The notes under the pieces: model-generated | Databases searched by the model: none | Seen by the model: only the letters and a program-made list of their open reading frames with translations | What the model was told of the DNA's origin: nothing | Translations under genes and position numbers: made by a program | Source of the DNA: Actinomycetes bacterium | GTDB taxonomy: Bacteria; Actinomycetota; Thermoleophilia; Gaiellales; Gaiellaceae | DNA: 64,000 bases | Assembly (NCBI GenBank): GCA_025358355.1 | Contig: JANYJX010000042.1 | Location: forward strand, 62,001-126,000 | Direction: 5' to 3' | Shown: in pieces, positions 19,104 through 44,553 of the stretch | Layout: every line of letters begins with the position of its first letter | Numbering within the stretch: position 1 is the first letter of the stretch

Positions 19104-20121
19104 CCCGCCGCGCGCTCGTCGTGTCGCAGCCTGGCGTGATTGGCATCCTCGAACGACCGACGCTCGCACCCGGGCCAGAGGAGGTCGTCGTTCGGCCCGC
19201 CTATTGCGGCCTGTGCGGTACCGACCTCGAGCTGAGGCAGGGAGATGTCGATCCCGCGTTCGTCACGTATCCGCTCACGCTCGGGCACGAGTGGTCGGGA
19301 ACCGTCGAGGCGGTCGGCGACGGCGTACGGCACGTCACGCCCGGCGACCGCTGCGTCGCCGAGTGCATTGTCCCCTGCGGGCAGTGCGAGAACTGTCTCG
19401 AAGGGCAGACCAACACCTGTGAGGTCTACGACGAGCTCGGCTTTACGCGTGAGGGTGGCGCCAGCGATCAGGTTGTCGTGCCGGCGAGGCTCGTACACAG
19501 GCTCGCCGACGGAGTTGGACTCCTCGACGCGGCGCTCGTCGAGCCCTCGTCGGTTGTGTTCCGCGGGCTGGAGAAGGCAGCTCCGCGGCCCGGCGGGCGG
19601 GTCGTTGTCATCGGCGACGGCACGATTGCGCTTCTTGCTGCGCATCTCATTGGGCTCTGGTCGCCACGCGAAGTTGTGCTCGTGGGGCGACGCGCCGAGC
19701 AGGAGGAGCTCGCGCTCGCCGTTGGCGCAACCCACTTCACAACAGACGATGCCGAGGCGTCTAACGCTGATCTCGCGATCGAGGCGGTCGGGGCGACGGT
19801 GGCGATCGAAACGGCGATCCGCGCCACGCGACGTGGCGGGACCGTCGTCTTGTTGGGTCTGCCTCCGACCGGGCAGACTGTCGAGCTCCCGGCCGACCTG
19901 CTCGTGAACAACGACCTGACGTTGGCAGCGAGCTTCGGCTACACCTCGGCAGCATGGGCTCGGGTGGTCGATCTGCTCAGTGCCGGGAAGATCGCGCCTG
20001 GTCGTCTCGTCACGCATCGATTCCCTCTAGAGCGCTTCGAGGACGCCTTCGCTGTCCTCGCGGCACCGTCGGGAACGCGCGGCAAGGTGCTTCTCGACAT
20101 CGCTGAGGAGGCGACCAACTG

Positions 20122-39193: not shown

Positions 39194-39754
39194 ATGGAGC
39201 CACCCTCGGACAGCGCGTTGGTCGCCGCGTGCCTCGCCGGCGAGCAAGCCGCGTGGAACGAGCTCGTCGAGCGTTTCTCCCGCTACGTCTTCGCAATCGC
39301 GACGCAGGCGTTCCGGCTTTCGCAGACTGACGCCGAGGATGTCTTCCAGGACGTCTTCGCGCGGATCTACGAGCGTCTCGGCACGCTTCGCGACGCGGAA
39401 GCGTTGCGGCCGTGGATCGCCCAACTCACTCGCCGCGAGTGCATCGACCGGCTGCGGAAGGCAACGCGCGAGGCGCCCGTCGAAGAACTGCCGGAGGAAA
39501 TCGAGAGCGCGATCGACAACGTCGAGGACGCCTTCGACGTACGCGCCGAGCTCGCCGCTCTCTCCGAGGAATGCCAGGCCGTCCTCGACCGCTTCTTCTG
39601 CCGGGACGAGAGCTATCGCACAATCGGCGAGGCGCTCGATCTGCCCCCCGGCACTATTGCAAGCCGCATTTCGCGCTGCCTCGCGCGCCTGCGCCAGCGG
39701 ATCGAGGGAAGAAATCTCACGGCTGCCGCGTCCAGTGAGCGGAGAGATCGATGA
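39194..39754 (+). CDS. ECF-type RNA polymerase sigma factor
   Basis: A 186-residue sigma-70 family protein with region 2 (AWNELVERFSRYVFAIATQAFRL; DAEDVFQDVFARIYERLGTLRD; LRPWIAQLTRRECIDRLRK) and region 4 (ECQAVLDRFFCRDESYRTIGEALDLPPGTIASRISRCLARLRQ). The ATG at 39194 begins the homologous part. Upstream, GAAC (about 39162) and CGTC (39178-39181) could be a weak ECF promoter, hinting at autoregulation. The following gene overlaps by ATGA, the usual place of an anti-sigma or regulator gene. First gene of a five-gene coupled operon. Confidence 0.9.
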   Translation: MEPPSDSALVAACLAGEQAAWNELVERFSRYVFAIATQAFRLSQTDAEDVFQDVFARIYERLGTLRDAEALRPWIAQLTRRECIDRLRKATREAPVEELPEEIESAIDNVEDAFDVRAELAALSEECQAVLDRFFCRDESYRTIGEALDLPPGTIASRISRCLARLRQRIEGRNLTAAASSERRDR

Positions 39755-40002
39755 GACACTATGACGAAGAGCGAATCGGTGAGCTGCTGCGGGCACTGCC
39801 CCCGGCACCGGCAGGCTACGTGGCGGCAGCGCAGGAGCTGCCCCGTGCGCGGGCCGAGATCGACGGCCTCGTCGGGCGCGCAAAGACCGATGTCGCTTTC
39901 CGCGCTGCGCTCCTCGCCGACCTCGAGGCTGCGCTGCTCGCAGAGGGCGTCGAGCCGCGACCGGCACTCGTCGATCTCCTCCGCCGACGCGTCACCGAGT
40001 GA
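39751..40002 (+). CDS. Small protein coupled to the ECF sigma factor
   Basis: An 83-residue soluble protein (MRHYDEERIGELLRALPPAPAGYV..ELPRARAEIDGLVGRAKTDVAF). It overlaps the sigma gene by ATGA and the next gene by GTGA. Position suggests an anti-sigma or co-factor role, but it has no Zn-binding HxxxCxxC motif and no membrane segment, so that is a guess. The ALPPAPAGYVAAAQELP stretch resembles the short linker found at the start of some anti-sigma-like proteins. Confidence 0.62.
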   Translation: MRHYDEERIGELLRALPPAPAGYVAAAQELPRARAEIDGLVGRAKTDVAFRAALLADLEAALLAEGVEPRPALVDLLRRRVTE

Positions 40003-40583
40003 GCTCTGGCGGCAACGATGGCGGCGATCTGCTCGCGCTTCGACTCGACGAATTCCTCGACGCGTTGGCCGCGACCACACCGGTGCCCGCGAGCGGCGTT
40101 GCCGCAGCCGTCGTCGGCGCGATGGCCGCCGAGCTGGTGGCGATGACAGCGCGAACAACGACCGGCTGGGGCGACTCGGCCGGCGTCGCGGCACAGGCTC
40201 GCGCGCTCGCGTCGCGACTGCGCCCGCTTGCCGCGGCCGACGCCGCCGCATTCGCCCGCGTTCTCGAGCTGCGCGCGGACGCGAACCTGGACCCGCGCGA
40301 CCTCGGCCCGGCACTCGAACGCGCGGCCGACATTCCGCTCCAGATCGCCGACGCATGCGCCGCGACAGCCGAGCTGGCCGCGCTCGCCGCGGAACGCGCC
40401 GTCGGGCACGAGCGCGCCGACGCCGTGGCCGCGGCAGCACTCGCCGAAGGAGCAACCTGCGCCGCCGCGGCGCTCGTCCTCGCGAACCTCACAACGGTCA
40501 CCGGCGACGCGCGATCCTCCCACGCCGACAAGCTCGTTCACATCGCGGCAGCGGCTCGTCAGCGAGCACTCGAGGCCACGTGA
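39999..40583 (+). CDS. Cyclodeaminase/cyclohydrolase (FTCD C-terminal) family protein
   Basis: A 194-residue helical protein beginning LRLDEFLDALAATTPVPASGVAAAVVGAMAAELVAM, the glycine/alanine-rich opening of the FTCD_C fold, and ending with helices like ADAVAAAALAEGATCAAAALVLANL. The family includes formiminotetrahydrofolate cyclodeaminase and methenyl-THF cyclohydrolase; no folate partner gene is here, so the reaction is open. The GTG overlaps the 83-aa gene by GTGA and its stop overlaps the subtilase start. Confidence 0.78.
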   Translation: MSSGGNDGGDLLALRLDEFLDALAATTPVPASGVAAAVVGAMAAELVAMTARTTTGWGDSAGVAAQARALASRLRPLAAADAAAFARVLELRADANLDPRDLGPALERAADIPLQIADACAATAELAALAAERAVGHERADAVAAAALAEGATCAAAALVLANLTTVTGDARSSHADKLVHIAAAARQRALEAT

Positions 40584-41395
40584 GTGAGGCCGTCCCCGCC
40601 TGGAGCCTTCCGGCCGCGGGCGTGGCCGGGATAGCGCTGACAAACATGTGGCCTGAGCCCCCAACGCGCGAATGGGCCTTCGGCGGGTCGACGGGCGCGG
40701 GCGCTCGGGTCTGCATACTCGACAGCGGCGTCGACGCCTCACACCCGCTCGTGGCGCCGCTCGACAGCGCGGTCGCCGTCGAGCTCGGCGACGACGGCGA
40801 GATCAGCATCGTGCCCGACGAGCTCGGCGATGTGTGCGGGCACGGCACTGCGTGCGCAGGAGTCGTGCGCTCGATCGCGCCGGACTGCTCGCTGCACAGC
40901 GTCCGCGTGCTCGGCGCGGGCGCGACGGGCAGTGGCGAGCTGATCCTCGCCGGGCTGCGTCATGCCGTCGAGCAGGGCTTCGATGTCATCAACCTGAGTC
41001 TCTCGACGACGAAGAAACGGTTCGCCGAGACGCTCCACGACCTCGCCGACGGCGCGTACTTCCGCCGGACTCTGCTCGTCGCCGCGGCGCACAACATGCC
41101 GGTCGAGAGCTATCCGTGGCGGTTCTCCTCGGTCATCTCCGTCGGCAGCCACGAGGAGGACGATCCGCTCGTCTGGTACGCAAACCCGTCGCCGCCCGTC
41201 GAGTTCTTCGCCCGCGGCGTCGACGTCAATGTCGCGTGGCCAGGCGGTGGAACAATGCGCTGCACGGGGAACAGCTTCGCCGCCCCGAACGTCGCCGCTC
41301 TCTGCGCCCTCGCGCTCGCGAAGCACCCCGAGCTGACGGCACCGCAAGTGAAGAGCCTTCTCTACCTCACCGCCACCAACACCCAAGGAGCGTGA
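40580..41395 (+). CDS. Subtilisin-like S8 serine peptidase without signal peptide
   Basis: A 271-residue minimal subtilase with an intact triad: Asp48 (VCILDSGVDASHP), His88 (CGHGTACAGV), Ser232 (GNSFAAPNVAA), and oxyanion Asn172 (VAAAHNMP). The N-terminus (SEAVPAWSLPAAGVAGIAL) is not a signal sequence and there is no inhibitor propeptide, so it should be cytoplasmic, as in peptidases that mature ribosomal peptides or act in signalling. The GTG lies in a GTGA overlap; three bases separate it from the GAF gene. About 730 bases downstream lies the gene for a 63-aa repeat peptide. Confidence 0.9.
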   Translation: MSEAVPAWSLPAAGVAGIALTNMWPEPPTREWAFGGSTGAGARVCILDSGVDASHPLVAPLDSAVAVELGDDGEISIVPDELGDVCGHGTACAGVVRSIAPDCSLHSVRVLGAGATGSGELILAGLRHAVEQGFDVINLSLSTTKKRFAETLHDLADGAYFRRTLLVAAAHNMPVESYPWRFSSVISVGSHEEDDPLVWYANPSPPVEFFARGVDVNVAWPGGGTMRCTGNSFAAPNVAALCALALAKHPELTAPQVKSLLYLTATNTQGA

Positions 41396-41398
41396 GCG

Positions 41399-42034
41399 AT
41401 GGACGAGGACGGATTCCGCGCGGCGGTCGCCGCAGGGACGCTCGGCAGCGAGGAGCAGCACCGTGCGTTGCTCCAGTCGATCGTGGATGTCGCACGCGCT
41501 ATCTTCGGGGCGAAGGCGTCCTCTATCTTCCTGTTCGACGAGGCGACCGAGGAGCTCGTTTTCGAGGCGGTCTCGGGCGAGGGCGAAGGCGACCTCGTCG
41601 GGATGCGCCTGCCGGCGAGCACGGGCATCTCCGGTTGGGTACTGGTGACACGCCAACCGCTCGCGATCGACGACCTCGCCAACGACCCTCGCTACGTGCG
41701 CAGCGTCGGCGAGCAGACGGGCTACGTGCCGAACGCGATGATGGTGGTGCCACTCCTGCACGGCGAGGCCGTCCTCGGCACGCTCTCGGTTCTCGATCCC
41801 CCTGAGGGAACACGCTTCGGTGTCGCGGAGATGGACTTGCTCGGGCTGTTCGCGGCGCAGGCCGCGATCGGGCTCGACCTGCTCCAGCGTGCCCGTCGTG
41901 CCCACGACATCCTCGCTAACGATCGCTCTACAGCCGCAGTGGTCGCGCGTGTCGCGGCGGCTCTCGACAGGCGCGACGACGACGCCGGCACGAGGCTGCT
42001 GACCGCCCTCGAGTCTCTCCTCGAGCAGCAATAG
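41399..42034 (+). CDS. GAF-domain protein
   Basis: A 211-residue soluble protein with one GAF domain (about 25-165): ALLQSIVDVARAIFGAKASSIFLFDEATEELVFEAVSG, LPASTGISGWVLVTRQPLAIDDLANDPRY, and AMMVVPLLHGEAVLGTLSVLD. A helical tail of about 45 residues follows. GAF domains bind small molecules such as cyclic nucleotides; no output domain is attached. It is the last gene of the sigma-factor operon and is followed by a hairpin terminator. Confidence 0.9.
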   Translation: MDEDGFRAAVAAGTLGSEEQHRALLQSIVDVARAIFGAKASSIFLFDEATEELVFEAVSGEGEGDLVGMRLPASTGISGWVLVTRQPLAIDDLANDPRYVRSVGEQTGYVPNAMMVVPLLHGEAVLGTLSVLDPPEGTRFGVAEMDLLGLFAAQAAIGLDLLQRARRAHDILANDRSTAAVVARVAAALDRRDDDAGTRLLTALESLLEQQ

Positions 42035-42061
42035 AACCGGGGCCTGCTCAGGCCCCGGTTC
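42034..42061 (+). terminator. Hairpin at the end of the sigma-factor operon
   Basis: GAACCGGGGCC (42034-42044) and its exact complement GGCCCCGGTTC (42051-42061) enclose TGCTCA. It starts inside the GAF stop codon; no U-tract follows. Confidence 0.7.
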
Positions 42062-42125
42062 AGTGCTTCACAGCGATTCGACGTCCTACGGAGGCGCGAA
42101 TGCGCGATGCGACTCCAGTGACGAG

Positions 42126-42317
42126 CTAGTTCTTGAGCTGGTTCTTCAGCTGGTCGGCGACTCCGCCCGTCTTGAGCATGTGGAGCTCGAAGTCGTCAGC
42201 CTCGCCCGTGTCGCCAACCTCAGCGTCCGGCTCCGGCTCGACCGTCTCGCCCGTCTTGTGCAGGTGCAGCTCGAAGTCGGGATCGGTCGGCTTATGCATC
42301 TCGCGCTCGTCGGACAT
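42126..42317 (-). CDS. 63-aa peptide with two DFELH-x2-KTG repeats (possible RiPP precursor)
   Basis: An acidic 63-residue peptide. DFELHLHKTG at 14-23 is repeated as DFELHMLKTG at 42-51, period 28, joined by an acidic linker (ETVEPEPDAEVGDTGEAD); the end is GGVADQLKNQLKN. There is no signal peptide or membrane segment. An AGAGGAG Shine-Dalgarno six bases before the ATG is strong for this genome, indicating high expression. GG after the second repeat could be a processing site. Its neighbours (signal-less subtilase, MFS-cNMP transporter, ECF sigma) fit a modified, exported peptide, but no modifying enzyme is evident. Function unknown. Confidence 0.72.
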   Translation of the reverse strand: MSDEREMHKPTDPDFELHLHKTGETVEPEPDAEVGDTGEADDFELHMLKTGGVADQLKNQLKN

Positions 42318-42334
42318 TTCGTGCTCCTCTCGTA

Positions 42335-42358
42335 GACGGAAAATAGGAGTGCGGTTCC
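42335..42358 (-). promoter_or_regulatory. ECF-like promoter of the repeat-peptide gene
   Basis: On the minus strand GGAAC (42358-42354), 15 bases, then CGTC (42338-42335). This is the typical -35/-10 pair of ECF sigma promoters. The predicted start near 42328 leaves a short leader that just includes AGGAG. Confidence 0.45.
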
Positions 42359-42457
42359 TACCGCTCGATCACTAGACGCGCGACCGCAGGGAAATCTTCC
42401 CACTCCGCGGGCAGATTGTAAAACCGCGCGTCGGAGCCGATGTGGGAAGCTCGCGCG

Positions 42458-44104
42458 ATGCATTCCTTCTCGCAGCGAGTGGCCGCACAGACGCGACCGC
42501 TGATCGAGACGTTCCGAAACGCAGACATGCGACGGCTACAACTCGCATGGCTCGGCTCGATTCTCGGCAGTGGGGCGTACTACGTCGCGCTCGCCGTGTA
42601 CGCGTACGCGCACGGCGGCGCGGGCGCCGTCGCGCTCGTTGGCGTGCTCCAGATGATCCCGGCGGCAATCGCGGCGCCATTCACCGCGGGGCTCGCCGAT
42701 CGCTTCCCGCGACGACTGGTGATGGTCGGGGCGGACACGGCTCGCGCAGCGCTGATGATCGCCATAGCCGCGACGATCGGGGCCGGCGGGTCGTCGTGGG
42801 TCGTGTACGCAATCCTCACGGTCTCCTCGATTGCGGGCACACCGTTCCGACCGGCGCAGGCCGCGCTGCTGCCGACGCTCGCGCAGACGCCGGCCGAGTT
42901 GACCGCGGCGAACGTGACGTCGAGCACCTTCGAGAGCGTCGGCTACTTCGCGGGGCCCGCGATCGGCGGCTTCCTGCTGGCCGCGACGAACGCGGAGACG
43001 GTCTTCGCGCTGAATGCCGTGAGCTTCGTCTGGTCGGCGCTGCTCGTCATGGGGGTCCGCGCCACCGAGCCAGTCGCCAGCCGCGAACCTTCCGAAGACG
43101 GGCAACCCGCGGGCGGAGGCGGCGGCGCGCTGGCCGGCTTCCGGACGATGCGCGGTAGCCGCGACGCCAAGCTCCTGGTCACGCTCTACGCAGGCCAGAC
43201 GCTCGTGGCCGGCGCGCTTGGGGTATTCGTCGTCGTCACCGCGCTGGAACTGCTCCATGGCAGCGCACGGACGGTCGGGACGCTGGAAGCAGCGATCGGC
43301 GCCGGTGGCCTGATCGGCGGCGTCGTTGCGGTCGCCCTCGCCGCACGGCAGCGGCTGGCGGCCGATCTCGCGTTTGGCCTCGCGCTCTTCGGCGCCCCCT
43401 TTCTCGCGATCGCCGCGTGGCCGCGACTTGCGCCGGCGATCGCAGGTCTCGTCATTCTCGGGATCGGCAACTCGCTCGTCGACATCTCTGCGATCACGCT
43501 GCTCCAGCGAATCGTCCCGGACGAGGTTCTCGGCCGTGTGCTCGGGCTCGTGCAAGGGCTGCTGCTCGGCTCGCTCGGCATCGGCGCCGCGCTCGCACCG
43601 CTGCTGATCCACGCCTTCGGTGCGCGAACTGCGCTTGTCGCGACCGGCGTGTTCCTGCCCGCTCTGGCGCTCGCCGCCTTGCCGCTCCTCGCGAAGCTCG
43701 ACGCGCCGGAGCCCGCGTCGGTCGACCTCCTCCGCGGCGTCGAGATTCTTGCGCCTCTAGCCCCGGCCACCCTCGACCGGCTCGCGCGCTCGCTGATCGA
43801 AGTGCGCATCGCAGCCGGAACCGAGATCATTCGCAAGGGAGACCCGGGCGACCGCTTCTACGTGATCGAGGACGGCGAGGTCGAAGTCGAGGGCAAAGTC
43901 CTCGCGCGCGGCTCGTCGTTCGGTGAAATCGCTCTCCTGCGCGACGTGCCGCGCACGGCCACCGTGACCGCGCGCACCGAGGTACTGTTGCGCGCGCTCG
44001 AGCGGAGCGACTTCCTACGCGCCGTGACCGAGCACGCGGCCAGCACCTCGGCGGCCGACGCGATCATCGCGCGGCGACTGGGCGATCTACGCGCGGACTT
44101 GTGA
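42458..44104 (+). CDS. MFS transporter fused to a cyclic-nucleotide-binding domain
   Basis: A 548-residue protein. Residues about 25-425 form a twelve-helix MFS exporter of the DHA3/enterobactin-exporter type (GLADRFPRRLVMVGAD between helices 2 and 3). The last 120 residues are a cNMP-binding domain: LLRGVEILAPLAPATLDRLA, GTEIIRKGDPGDRFYVIEDGEVEV, and the phosphate cassette GSSFGEIALLRDVPRTATVTA with the Gly-Glu..Arg signature. Transport is probably gated by a cyclic nucleotide. It diverges from the repeat-peptide gene, making it a candidate exporter for the processed peptide. An upstream GTG (42440) is less likely as start. Confidence 0.9.
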   Translation: MHSFSQRVAAQTRPLIETFRNADMRRLQLAWLGSILGSGAYYVALAVYAYAHGGAGAVALVGVLQMIPAAIAAPFTAGLADRFPRRLVMVGADTARAALMIAIAATIGAGGSSWVVYAILTVSSIAGTPFRPAQAALLPTLAQTPAELTAANVTSSTFESVGYFAGPAIGGFLLAATNAETVFALNAVSFVWSALLVMGVRATEPVASREPSEDGQPAGGGGGALAGFRTMRGSRDAKLLVTLYAGQTLVAGALGVFVVVTALELLHGSARTVGTLEAAIGAGGLIGGVVAVALAARQRLAADLAFGLALFGAPFLAIAAWPRLAPAIAGLVILGIGNSLVDISAITLLQRIVPDEVLGRVLGLVQGLLLGSLGIGAALAPLLIHAFGARTALVATGVFLPALALAALPLLAKLDAPEPASVDLLRGVEILAPLAPATLDRLARSLIEVRIAAGTEIIRKGDPGDRFYVIEDGEVEVEGKVLARGSSFGEIALLRDVPRTATVTARTEVLLRALERSDFLRAVTEHAASTSAADAIIARRLGDLRADL

Positions 44105-44136
44105 CAAAGGACGCAGGAGCGGCATAGAATGCGCCG

Positions 44137-44553
44137 ATGCCTACCCCAACGCTCGACCTGATCCGCGGTGTCCCCCTCTTTGCCGGGTTGGATGACGCCC
44201 TTCTGCAGCGACTAGCCGGTGAGTTCTTCGAGAAGACGTTCTCCGATGGCGAGGTGATCGCTACCGAAGGCGAAGCGGGTCGGACGTTTGTTGTCATCGA
44301 GTCGGGCGAAGTGAGCGTGTCGGTTCAGGGCATGGCCGTTGCGACGCTCGGCCCGGGCAAAGCTTTCGGTGAGCTGGCGCTGATCGACAAGTCGGCGCGG
44401 AGTGCCACCGTGACGGCCGTCGGCCAGGCGCACTGCTATCTGATGCCGATCTGGAGCTTCCGACCCATCGTCGAGGAGCATCCGGAGATGGCGTGGACGC
44501 TACTCGAGTCGCTCGCCAAGCTCGTGCGCGACATCGAAGCCCGCACGTCCTAG
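44137..44553 (+). CDS. Stand-alone cyclic-nucleotide-binding protein
   Basis: A 138-residue cNMP-binding beta-barrel without DNA-binding or kinase domain: LIRGVPLFAGLDDALLQRLAGEF, GEVIATEGEAGRTFVVIESGEVSVS, and phosphate cassette GKAFGELALIDKSARSATVTA (Glu and Arg conserved). It parallels the domain fused to the preceding transporter and may have arisen from it or compete for the same ligand. TAGAAT (44125-44130) is exactly six bases before the ATG. Confidence 0.9.
   Translation: MPTPTLDLIRGVPLFAGLDDALLQRLAGEFFEKTFSDGEVIATEGEAGRTFVVIESGEVSVSVQGMAVATLGPGKAFGELALIDKSARSATVTAVGQAHCYLMPIWSFRPIVEEHPEMAWTLLESLAKLVRDIEARTS

Follow-up and report, generated by a model that had tools for sequence, protein, structure and literature searches.

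We analysed a stretch of 64,000 nucleotides (hereafter the window) from contig JANYJX010000042.1 of a Gaiellaceae genome (assembly GCA_025358355.1), where eight adjacent genes may form a system, controlled by an extracytoplasmic function (ECF) sigma factor, for making and cutting short ribosomal peptides and probably also for exporting them. The genes encoding the sigma factor, an 83-residue protein (p83), an FTCD_C-like protein, and an S8 peptidase follow one another with successive 4-base overlaps, and the gene encoding a GAF-domain protein begins after a gap of 3 bases. Beyond them lie the genes for a 63-residue peptide (pep63), for a major facilitator superfamily (MFS) transporter carrying a cyclic nucleoside monophosphate (cNMP)-binding domain, and for a free cNMP-binding protein. 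According to Pfam and NCBIfam profiles, all the family matches listed in Table 1 lie above the cut-off except that of p83, and a preliminary description of the locus had placed the open reading frames (ORFs) and their families as we found them. The sigma factor is assigned to the ECF class on the grounds of its two regions, its TIGR02937 score, and an ECF-type promoter near its presumed target genes. A perfect inverted repeat separates the convergent GAF and peptide genes and is a probable terminator.

Table 1. Genes and other features of the predicted peptide system, with positions in the window
Feature	Position	Strand	Remarks
ECF sigma factor gene	39194-39754	+	Regions 2 and 4 only; TIGR02937 87 bits (cut-off 42.9), PF04542 46 bits
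ECF-type promoter of the p83-FTCD-S8-GAF operon	39702-39740	+	-35 GGGAAGAA 39706-39713, -10 CGTC 39729-39732; score 25.0 (peptide-promoter matrix)
p83 (83 aa, helical, NHLP-clan/Os1348-like)	39751-40002	+	NF038399 36.9 bits (cut-off 40)
FTCD_C-like protein (cyclodeaminase/cyclohydrolase fold)	39999-40583	+	PF04961 73 bits; optional member
S8 (subtilase) peptidase, 271 aa	40580-41395	+	GTG start at 40580; PF00082 97.5 bits (cut-off 21.8)
GAF-domain protein	41399-42034	+	PF01590 70 bits
Perfect inverted repeat	42035-42060		AACCGGGGCCT-GCTC-AGGCCCCGGTT; between convergent GAF and peptide genes; read from the sequence
pep63 (63-aa precursor peptide)	42126-42317	-	Two DFELH tags; single copy in its own genome
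ECF-type promoter of pep63	42367-42405	-	-35 GGGAAGAT 42394-42401, -10 CGTC 42375-42378, spacing 15; score 39.9
MFS transporter with C-terminal cNMP-binding domain	42440-44104	+	Divergent from pep63; MFS_1 88.7 bits, cNMP_binding 61.1 bits
Free cNMP-binding protein, 138 aa	44137-44553	+	cNMP_binding 60.9 bits

The peptide gene belongs to a family that is held together by a short tag. The peptides of relatives were not found by similarity to pep63, and a search of the relatives for FELH-type motifs gave nothing; the general tag, [DE][VF]E[AGL]H, was recognised by reading the gaps between the GAF and MFS genes by eye. These gaps hold a small ORF, divergent from the MFS gene, that bears one to four copies of the tag. 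Counting one member per distinct S8 locus, the tagged peptide gene is present in 40 of 48 Thermoleophilia loci, so that the S8 gene does have a peptide partner in the relatives; the other eight comprise four contig ends, three divergent S8 paralogs, and one locus (L094) that ends soon after the GAF gene. At least two tags occur in 38 ORFs, against a mean of 0.4 and a maximum of 2 for letter-permuted motifs, the sole high-scoring exception being the near-synonymous [EQD][VF][DE][AGLV]H. The 44 peptides collected are 46 to 98 residues long, contain no Cys, consist of about 30% Asp plus Glu and 6% His with some HRHR runs, and match no Pfam or NCBIfam model. With a Shine-Dalgarno-like sequence and a promoter of its own, this conserved small ORF has the properties of a gene-encoded precursor. 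Second peptide copies, each with its own promoter copy, were observed at two loci (L055 and L074).

The arrangement of the repeats within the precursors points to where a product could begin. In pep63, each of the two tags is followed by a related segment (LHKTGE and MLKTGG, respectively). Across the family, the six residues after the tag His are 54% identical within a precursor versus 11% between species, and none of 1000 label shuffles gave a value as high. Identity at position +1 after the His is 0.62 within precursors and 0.20 between species, and it stays above background up to +15; at position -1 before the tag it is 0.41 within precursors and 0.27 between species, and further out it is lower, near background. 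Conservation of the repeats thus sets in right after the tag His, as one would expect of a product that starts there and is present in several copies.

A promoter motif of fixed spacing ties the peptide gene to the operon. Upstream of the peptide genes we found 38 sites of the form GGGAAGATT-N14-CGTCTaGTg, at constant spacing and 60 to 115 bases from the start, and the pep63 promoter is the only above-threshold site in the window. The same motif lies 40 to 50 bases 5' of 34 of 39 p83 starts in the relatives, above the 99th percentile of random sequence, whereas it was found at none of the sigma, FTCD, S8, GAF, and MFS starts. In the window, the p83 promoter is contained in the last part of the sigma gene, a short distance 5' of the p83 start; in G168, a genome outside the order, p83 is relocated downstream of the GAF gene and the promoter is relocated along with it. 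Since the motif GGGAAGAT-N15-CGTC stands at both units, the sigma factor, which is 53 to 67% identical across the syntenic loci, most probably co-induces the p83-FTCD-S8-GAF operon and the peptide gene, and its linkage to the locus suggests that it would be the dedicated regulator reading this motif. A second exact match in the same genome, at window position 19985, falls on Gly-Lys-Ile codons and was taken as chance. Promoter-like sites were also noted at L208 (5045-5083), L210 (4654-4692), and L213 (4577-4615), next to or away from the sigma gene and with no tagged ORF recognised downstream; these are possible further regulon members or chance matches.

The genes also travel together. Among the genomes inspected (61 relatives, 199 genomes of the class, and 396 across the phylum), S8 orthologs were identified in 28 of the 61 relatives and 30 of the 199 class genomes, nearly all of them in two families of the order; the exception, G168, belongs to a family outside it. 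The order sigma-p83-(FTCD)-S8-GAF-gap-MFS-cNMP is kept in most loci of the two families and rearranged in the third; in relatives, the free cNMP-binding gene usually lies just 5' of the sigma gene, and in some genomes sigma, p83, and FTCD are found on a separate contig, still present. The FTCD_C-like gene itself occurs in about half of the loci, including that of G168 and the detached sigma-p83 loci. p83 is encoded in 25 of the 28 S8-bearing genomes and in 1 of the 33 without S8 (Fisher 9e-13; genomes not independent), and in 3 of 396 genomes across the phylum. MFS orthologs of at least 45% identity occur in 23 genomes, of which 22 carry S8 and the remaining one (G022) shows the promoter, a tagged peptide, and the end of a GAF gene at a contig edge; the MFS gene is linked to the system in 20 or more loci. 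Wherever the contig of a Thermoleophilia locus extends far enough, the peptide adjoins GAF or MFS, the divergent S8 paralogs excepted. The linkage as one system, which the preliminary description had offered as a conjecture, is strongly supported by this synteny, by the promoter shared between pep63 and the p83-S8-GAF operon, and by the co-occurrence of S8 and p83; peptide and MFS genes standing without sigma, S8, and GAF in most relatives were not what we encountered.

The S8 protein, predicted to be the maturase of the tagged peptide, is a member of the subtilase family with a complete catalytic triad. D48, H88, and S232, as proposed earlier, and in addition N172 are invariant across alignments of 24 and of 96 relatives, and neither a signal peptide nor a prodomain is evident in the 271 residues. 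The GAF gene adjoins S8 in 96 of 97 S8 loci, and in a fold search with its structure model the best matches were 5w10 (cAMP) and 1ykd, cAMP/cGMP-binding GAF domains. Some Gaiellaceae carry a divergent S8-GAF subfamily (46 to 53% identity; L056/L219, L059, and L060) that has no tagged peptide nearby, and in L219 the pair adjoins genes for a class III cyclase and a Crp-like regulator. As the pairs of L056, L059, and L060 show, an S8-GAF pair need not have the tag with it.

When named genomes were searched with the S8 alignment, the same pair was found in Streptomyces, Kitasatospora, Streptosporangiaceae, Rhodococcus, and others, with S8 at 55 to 64% identity and GAF directly after it. Here genes nearby encode a class III cyclase-AAA protein, a radical S-adenosylmethionine (SAM) protein, and an aroma-sacti-domain protein (NF045560, 67 to 77 bits) which ends in ...EV[EQ][AG][HQ] and a short tail; many loci additionally encode one or two lanthipeptide-like precursors of the form ...PEVEAHSVLDLQ...GNCISVLSVV. 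A tagged small ORF is present in 36 of 41 of these actinomycete loci (permuted motifs, median 0). In all eight genomes checked, a LanKC/LanL-type synthetase is located at the contig position of the S8 locus or immediately past the retrieved sequence, as judged from contig numbers and coordinates. The Thermoleophilia and actinomycete settings are mixed in the S8 tree, with two changes, and no match for the sigma factor, p83, or the MFS-cNMP protein was detected at the tag-sharing actinomycete loci. S8 and GAF are the only proteins common to all settings, so that the tag is most likely read by one of these two. Peptide processing by S8 is in this way supported indirectly, by the co-occurrence of tag and S8 in actinomycete clusters for ribosomally synthesized and post-translationally modified peptides (RiPPs). 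Glu176 of the S8 protein (codon 41105-41107), near the expected S1 pocket, was considered as a determinant of the tag-final His and rejected as confounded by descent: the actinomycete S8 proteins with Gln-ending tags all lack Glu176 and all form one clade, and several enzymes without it have His tags.

From a gene set, conserved positions, tag, repeat asymmetry, fixed-spacing promoter, and co-occurrence that are supported by sequence comparison, we infer a model for which we estimate a probability of roughly 0.56. The ECF sigma factor would recognise its promoter motif and switch on the p83-(FTCD)-S8-GAF operon and the divergent peptide gene. The precursor would consist of cassettes, each made of an acidic linker, a tag, and a product segment whose sequence recurs within a precursor and differs from species to species. 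The cytoplasmic S8 peptidase, together with the GAF protein, would cut right after the tag His (Val or Phe at P4, a small residue at P2, and His at P1), thereby freeing the segments. Subtilisins favour a hydrophobic P4. Cleavage after the His is proposed since D-V-E-A-H, read as P5 to P1, matches the D-V-Q-A-E and D-V-N-P-E of the sequences removed by S8 lanthipeptide proteases (GDVQAE by CylA, NDVNPE by LicP; GDMEAA by AprE) (PMC10885120). The predicted pieces of pep63 are MSDEREMHKPTDPDFELH, LHKTGETVEPEPDAEVGDTGEADDFELH, and MLKTGGVADQLKNQLKN, and the products of the window would begin with LHKTG... and MLKTGG.... The MFS-cNMP protein is predicted to export the segments, the timing being set by cNMP binding to its own domain and perhaps to the GAF protein. 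The purpose would be signalling or competition.

Some of the data weigh against this proposal. Both the shuffle and the Fisher values overstate independence, given that the sampled genomes are related, and the p83 promoter overlaps C-terminal codons of the sigma gene, so that its conservation could be partly at protein level. Six S8-bearing genomes lack a close MFS gene; some are incomplete, and at least one of the six (G001/L062) keeps the peptide. MFS-cNMP paralogs below 45% identity are accompanied by a peptide in only 1 of 20 loci, with 19 without, and proteins of the MFS_3/EntS type, which the window protein resembles by profile, usually transport small molecules. In the actinomycetes, 5 of the 41 loci have no tagged ORF, and the alignment of the GAF proteins does not show the NK..F...DE motif that is classical for cNMP binding. 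Finally, there is an alternative use for the tag, which we regard as unlikely although it is the best of the alternatives: it could be a docking signal that the exporter, p83, or GAF binds like a leader, with S8 cutting at some other site or having another substrate. Co-occurrence cannot tell which of S8 and GAF reads the tag, as the two are inseparable; p83 resembles NHLP-clan proteins; and two MFS-peptide pairs stand away from S8 (G020:C101 and G013:C59). On the other hand, the actinomycete loci share the tag without having p83 or MFS-cNMP, the tag resembles P5 to P1 of known S8 substrates (PMC10885120), and the conservation of the repeats begins exactly after the His, all of which argues against mere docking.

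Less likely still is a switch based on regulated proteolysis, in which S8 would degrade p83 as an anti-sigma factor, or in which the acidic peptide would be a pseudo-substrate inhibitor of S8, regulatory and not exported. The position of p83 directly after the sigma gene, its control by the same promoter, and its co-occurrence with S8 would suit such a switch, as would an S8 enzyme that has no prodomain to hold it inactive; a pseudo-substrate, however, has no need of product segments that are repeated within a precursor yet differ between species, and the actinomycete tags stand in lanthipeptide-like and aroma-sacti proteins. We deem it improbable that the operon is a stress regulon whose acidic, His-bearing peptide stays unprocessed and serves in stress or metal binding. 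Its composition, with the HRHR runs, the ECF control, and the likeness of the MFS protein to the EntS siderophore exporters are compatible with this, whereas a tag that is constrained at no more than five positions and followed by a variable segment, the constant S8-GAF partner, and tags in Cys-bearing lanthipeptide-like actinomycete precursors are not what it predicts. Chance adjacency of unrelated genes, for which one could cite the position of the cassette at a housekeeping junction in close relatives (xseB on one side, a glycosyltransferase region on the other), is refuted by the synteny over two families and, at other sites, a third, by the shared promoter, and by the co-occurrence.

Regarding the partners in the proposed cutting and export, p83 had been listed simply as an 83-residue protein; the ORF stands, but the protein is not anonymous, being NHLP-clan/Os1348-like by profile. 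The protein of the window falls short of the NF038399 cut-off (Os1348 family NHLP clan; 36.9 vs 40 bits), and 16 of 17 p83 relatives match this model at E<0.01. Its structure model shows three helices at a predicted local distance difference test score (pLDDT) of 88, a fold search returned no match under E 1, and NF045560 (aroma-sacti, cut-off 30 bits) matched neither p83 nor pep63. p83 probably acts either as a peptide carrier or, in feedback on the sigma factor, as its partner. In another family of the phylum, a stretch at L263 (G249:C166:53000-68000) encodes a protein distantly like p83, with a sigma factor of 40% identity and several cNMP-binding genes in the vicinity but without S8 or tag.

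As for the transporter, MFS paralogs away from S8 with an adjoining tagged peptide include those of the two pairs named above and probably that of G013:C133, all in S8-bearing genomes. It is thus this MFS subfamily that goes with the peptide, whereas MFS-cNMP fusions as such lack specificity. Cyclic nucleotides are a recurring theme: both the MFS protein and the free protein have cNMP domains, cyclases are encoded in the actinomycete clusters and next to the system of G168, the genome of the window gives nine class III cyclase hits, and the GAF model is most similar to cAMP/cGMP-binding domains. As the GAF alignment does not show the classical cNMP signature, cNMP control of the system is a lead, not a result.

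Mechanistically, the system is closest to S8-matured ribosomal peptides. As with the leader peptidases AmyP, ElxP, CylA, and LicP, of which ElxP is cytoplasmic, a subtilase would recognise a short acidic-hydrophobic motif in a ribosomal precursor and cut there; unlike theirs, the precursor has no Cys, the operon has no lanthionine synthetase, the tags are repeated, and the GAF partner is constant. The motif required by AmyP, a protease of class III lanthipeptides, is (T/S/A)EVE (PMC10885120); by motif, the tag overlaps with it only in part. QhpE of quinohemoprotein amine dehydrogenase is a signal-less cytoplasmic S8 protease that removes a leader before export (PMC7876137); the window protein matches its model NF049966 at 89.5 bits, below the cut-off of 165, and the operon has neither Qhp subunits nor a radical SAM protein. 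The cyanobactin proteases PatA and PatG are likewise S8 enzymes with recognition sequences flanking cassettes; the match to TIGR03895 is weak (34.4 bits, cut-off 421), there is no heterocyclase or macrocyclase here, and tag and regulation differ. The score for type VII secretion mycosins also falls below the cut-off (TIGR03921, 103 vs 278.75 bits), and the S8 protein has no signal or anchor. p83 shares its clan with the NHLP-type RiPP systems and Os1348, whose associated transport proteins carry cNMP domains (TIGR03896, a weak match here); p83 is, however, below the family cut-off and conserved throughout without a variable core, and no NHLM ATP-binding cassette exporter was matched. The aroma-sacti and class III/IV lanthipeptide clusters (NF045560, NF038150/NF038151) share the S8-GAF pair and the tagged small proteins with the system described here and differ in carrying radical SAM proteins, lanthionine synthetases, and cyclase-AAA proteins. 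Assignment to class III/IV itself suits the actinomycete relatives only, as the 44 Thermoleophilia peptides have no Cys and no synthetase is among the operon proteins. The RiPP suggested earlier holds as regards a gene-encoded precursor; in the strict sense it is not supported, for the peptides lack Cys and no known modification enzyme was matched by Pfam or NCBIfam among the eight window proteins, the role of the FTCD_C-like protein aside; no dedicated peptide receptor was identified in the locus.

The combination of a Cys-free multi-cassette precursor, an obligate GAF partner, a sigma regulon, and an MFS-cNMP protein is new, and we found no mention of the tag or the cluster in the open-access literature (DVEAH/DVEGH/EVEAH, aroma-sacti, and the gene combination). 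The recurrence of tag and protease in Streptomyces lanthipeptide-type clusters points to an undescribed peptide-processing code. More tentatively, and with less confidence than in the model above, S8-GAF might be a portable, cyclic-nucleotide-responsive maturase across Actinomycetota that reads [DE]V[EQ][AG][HQ] in precursors unrelated in other respects, from class III/IV lanthipeptides and aroma-sacti proteins to the unmodified multi-cassette peptides of Thermoleophilia, and that in Gaiellaceae would power sigma-controlled peptide export or signalling without a modification enzyme. If true, a peptide output could be predicted, and a regulon defined, for a soil lineage known mostly from metagenomes, and a protease and its recognition tag would be named for many actinomycete RiPP clusters, for which the maturation protease is often unknown. 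Tag and S8-GAF together would then serve as a handle for precursors which, being short, acidic, and Cys-free, are missed by current tools.

Some members of the system deviate from the common layout. In-frame stops occur in p83 (L032, G002:C4) and MFS (G002:C19) of G002, and the MFS gene of L044 is split, which suggests that the system is decaying in these members or that their assemblies contain errors. In G168 (L233, G168:C2:190000-206000), the system lies directly beside a gene for a 1315-aa cyclase-AAA protein, a layout between the Gaiella and Streptomyces versions, and a small protein encoded near it carries ETQAH, ETQAH, and EVEIH tags together with a weaker copy of the promoter.

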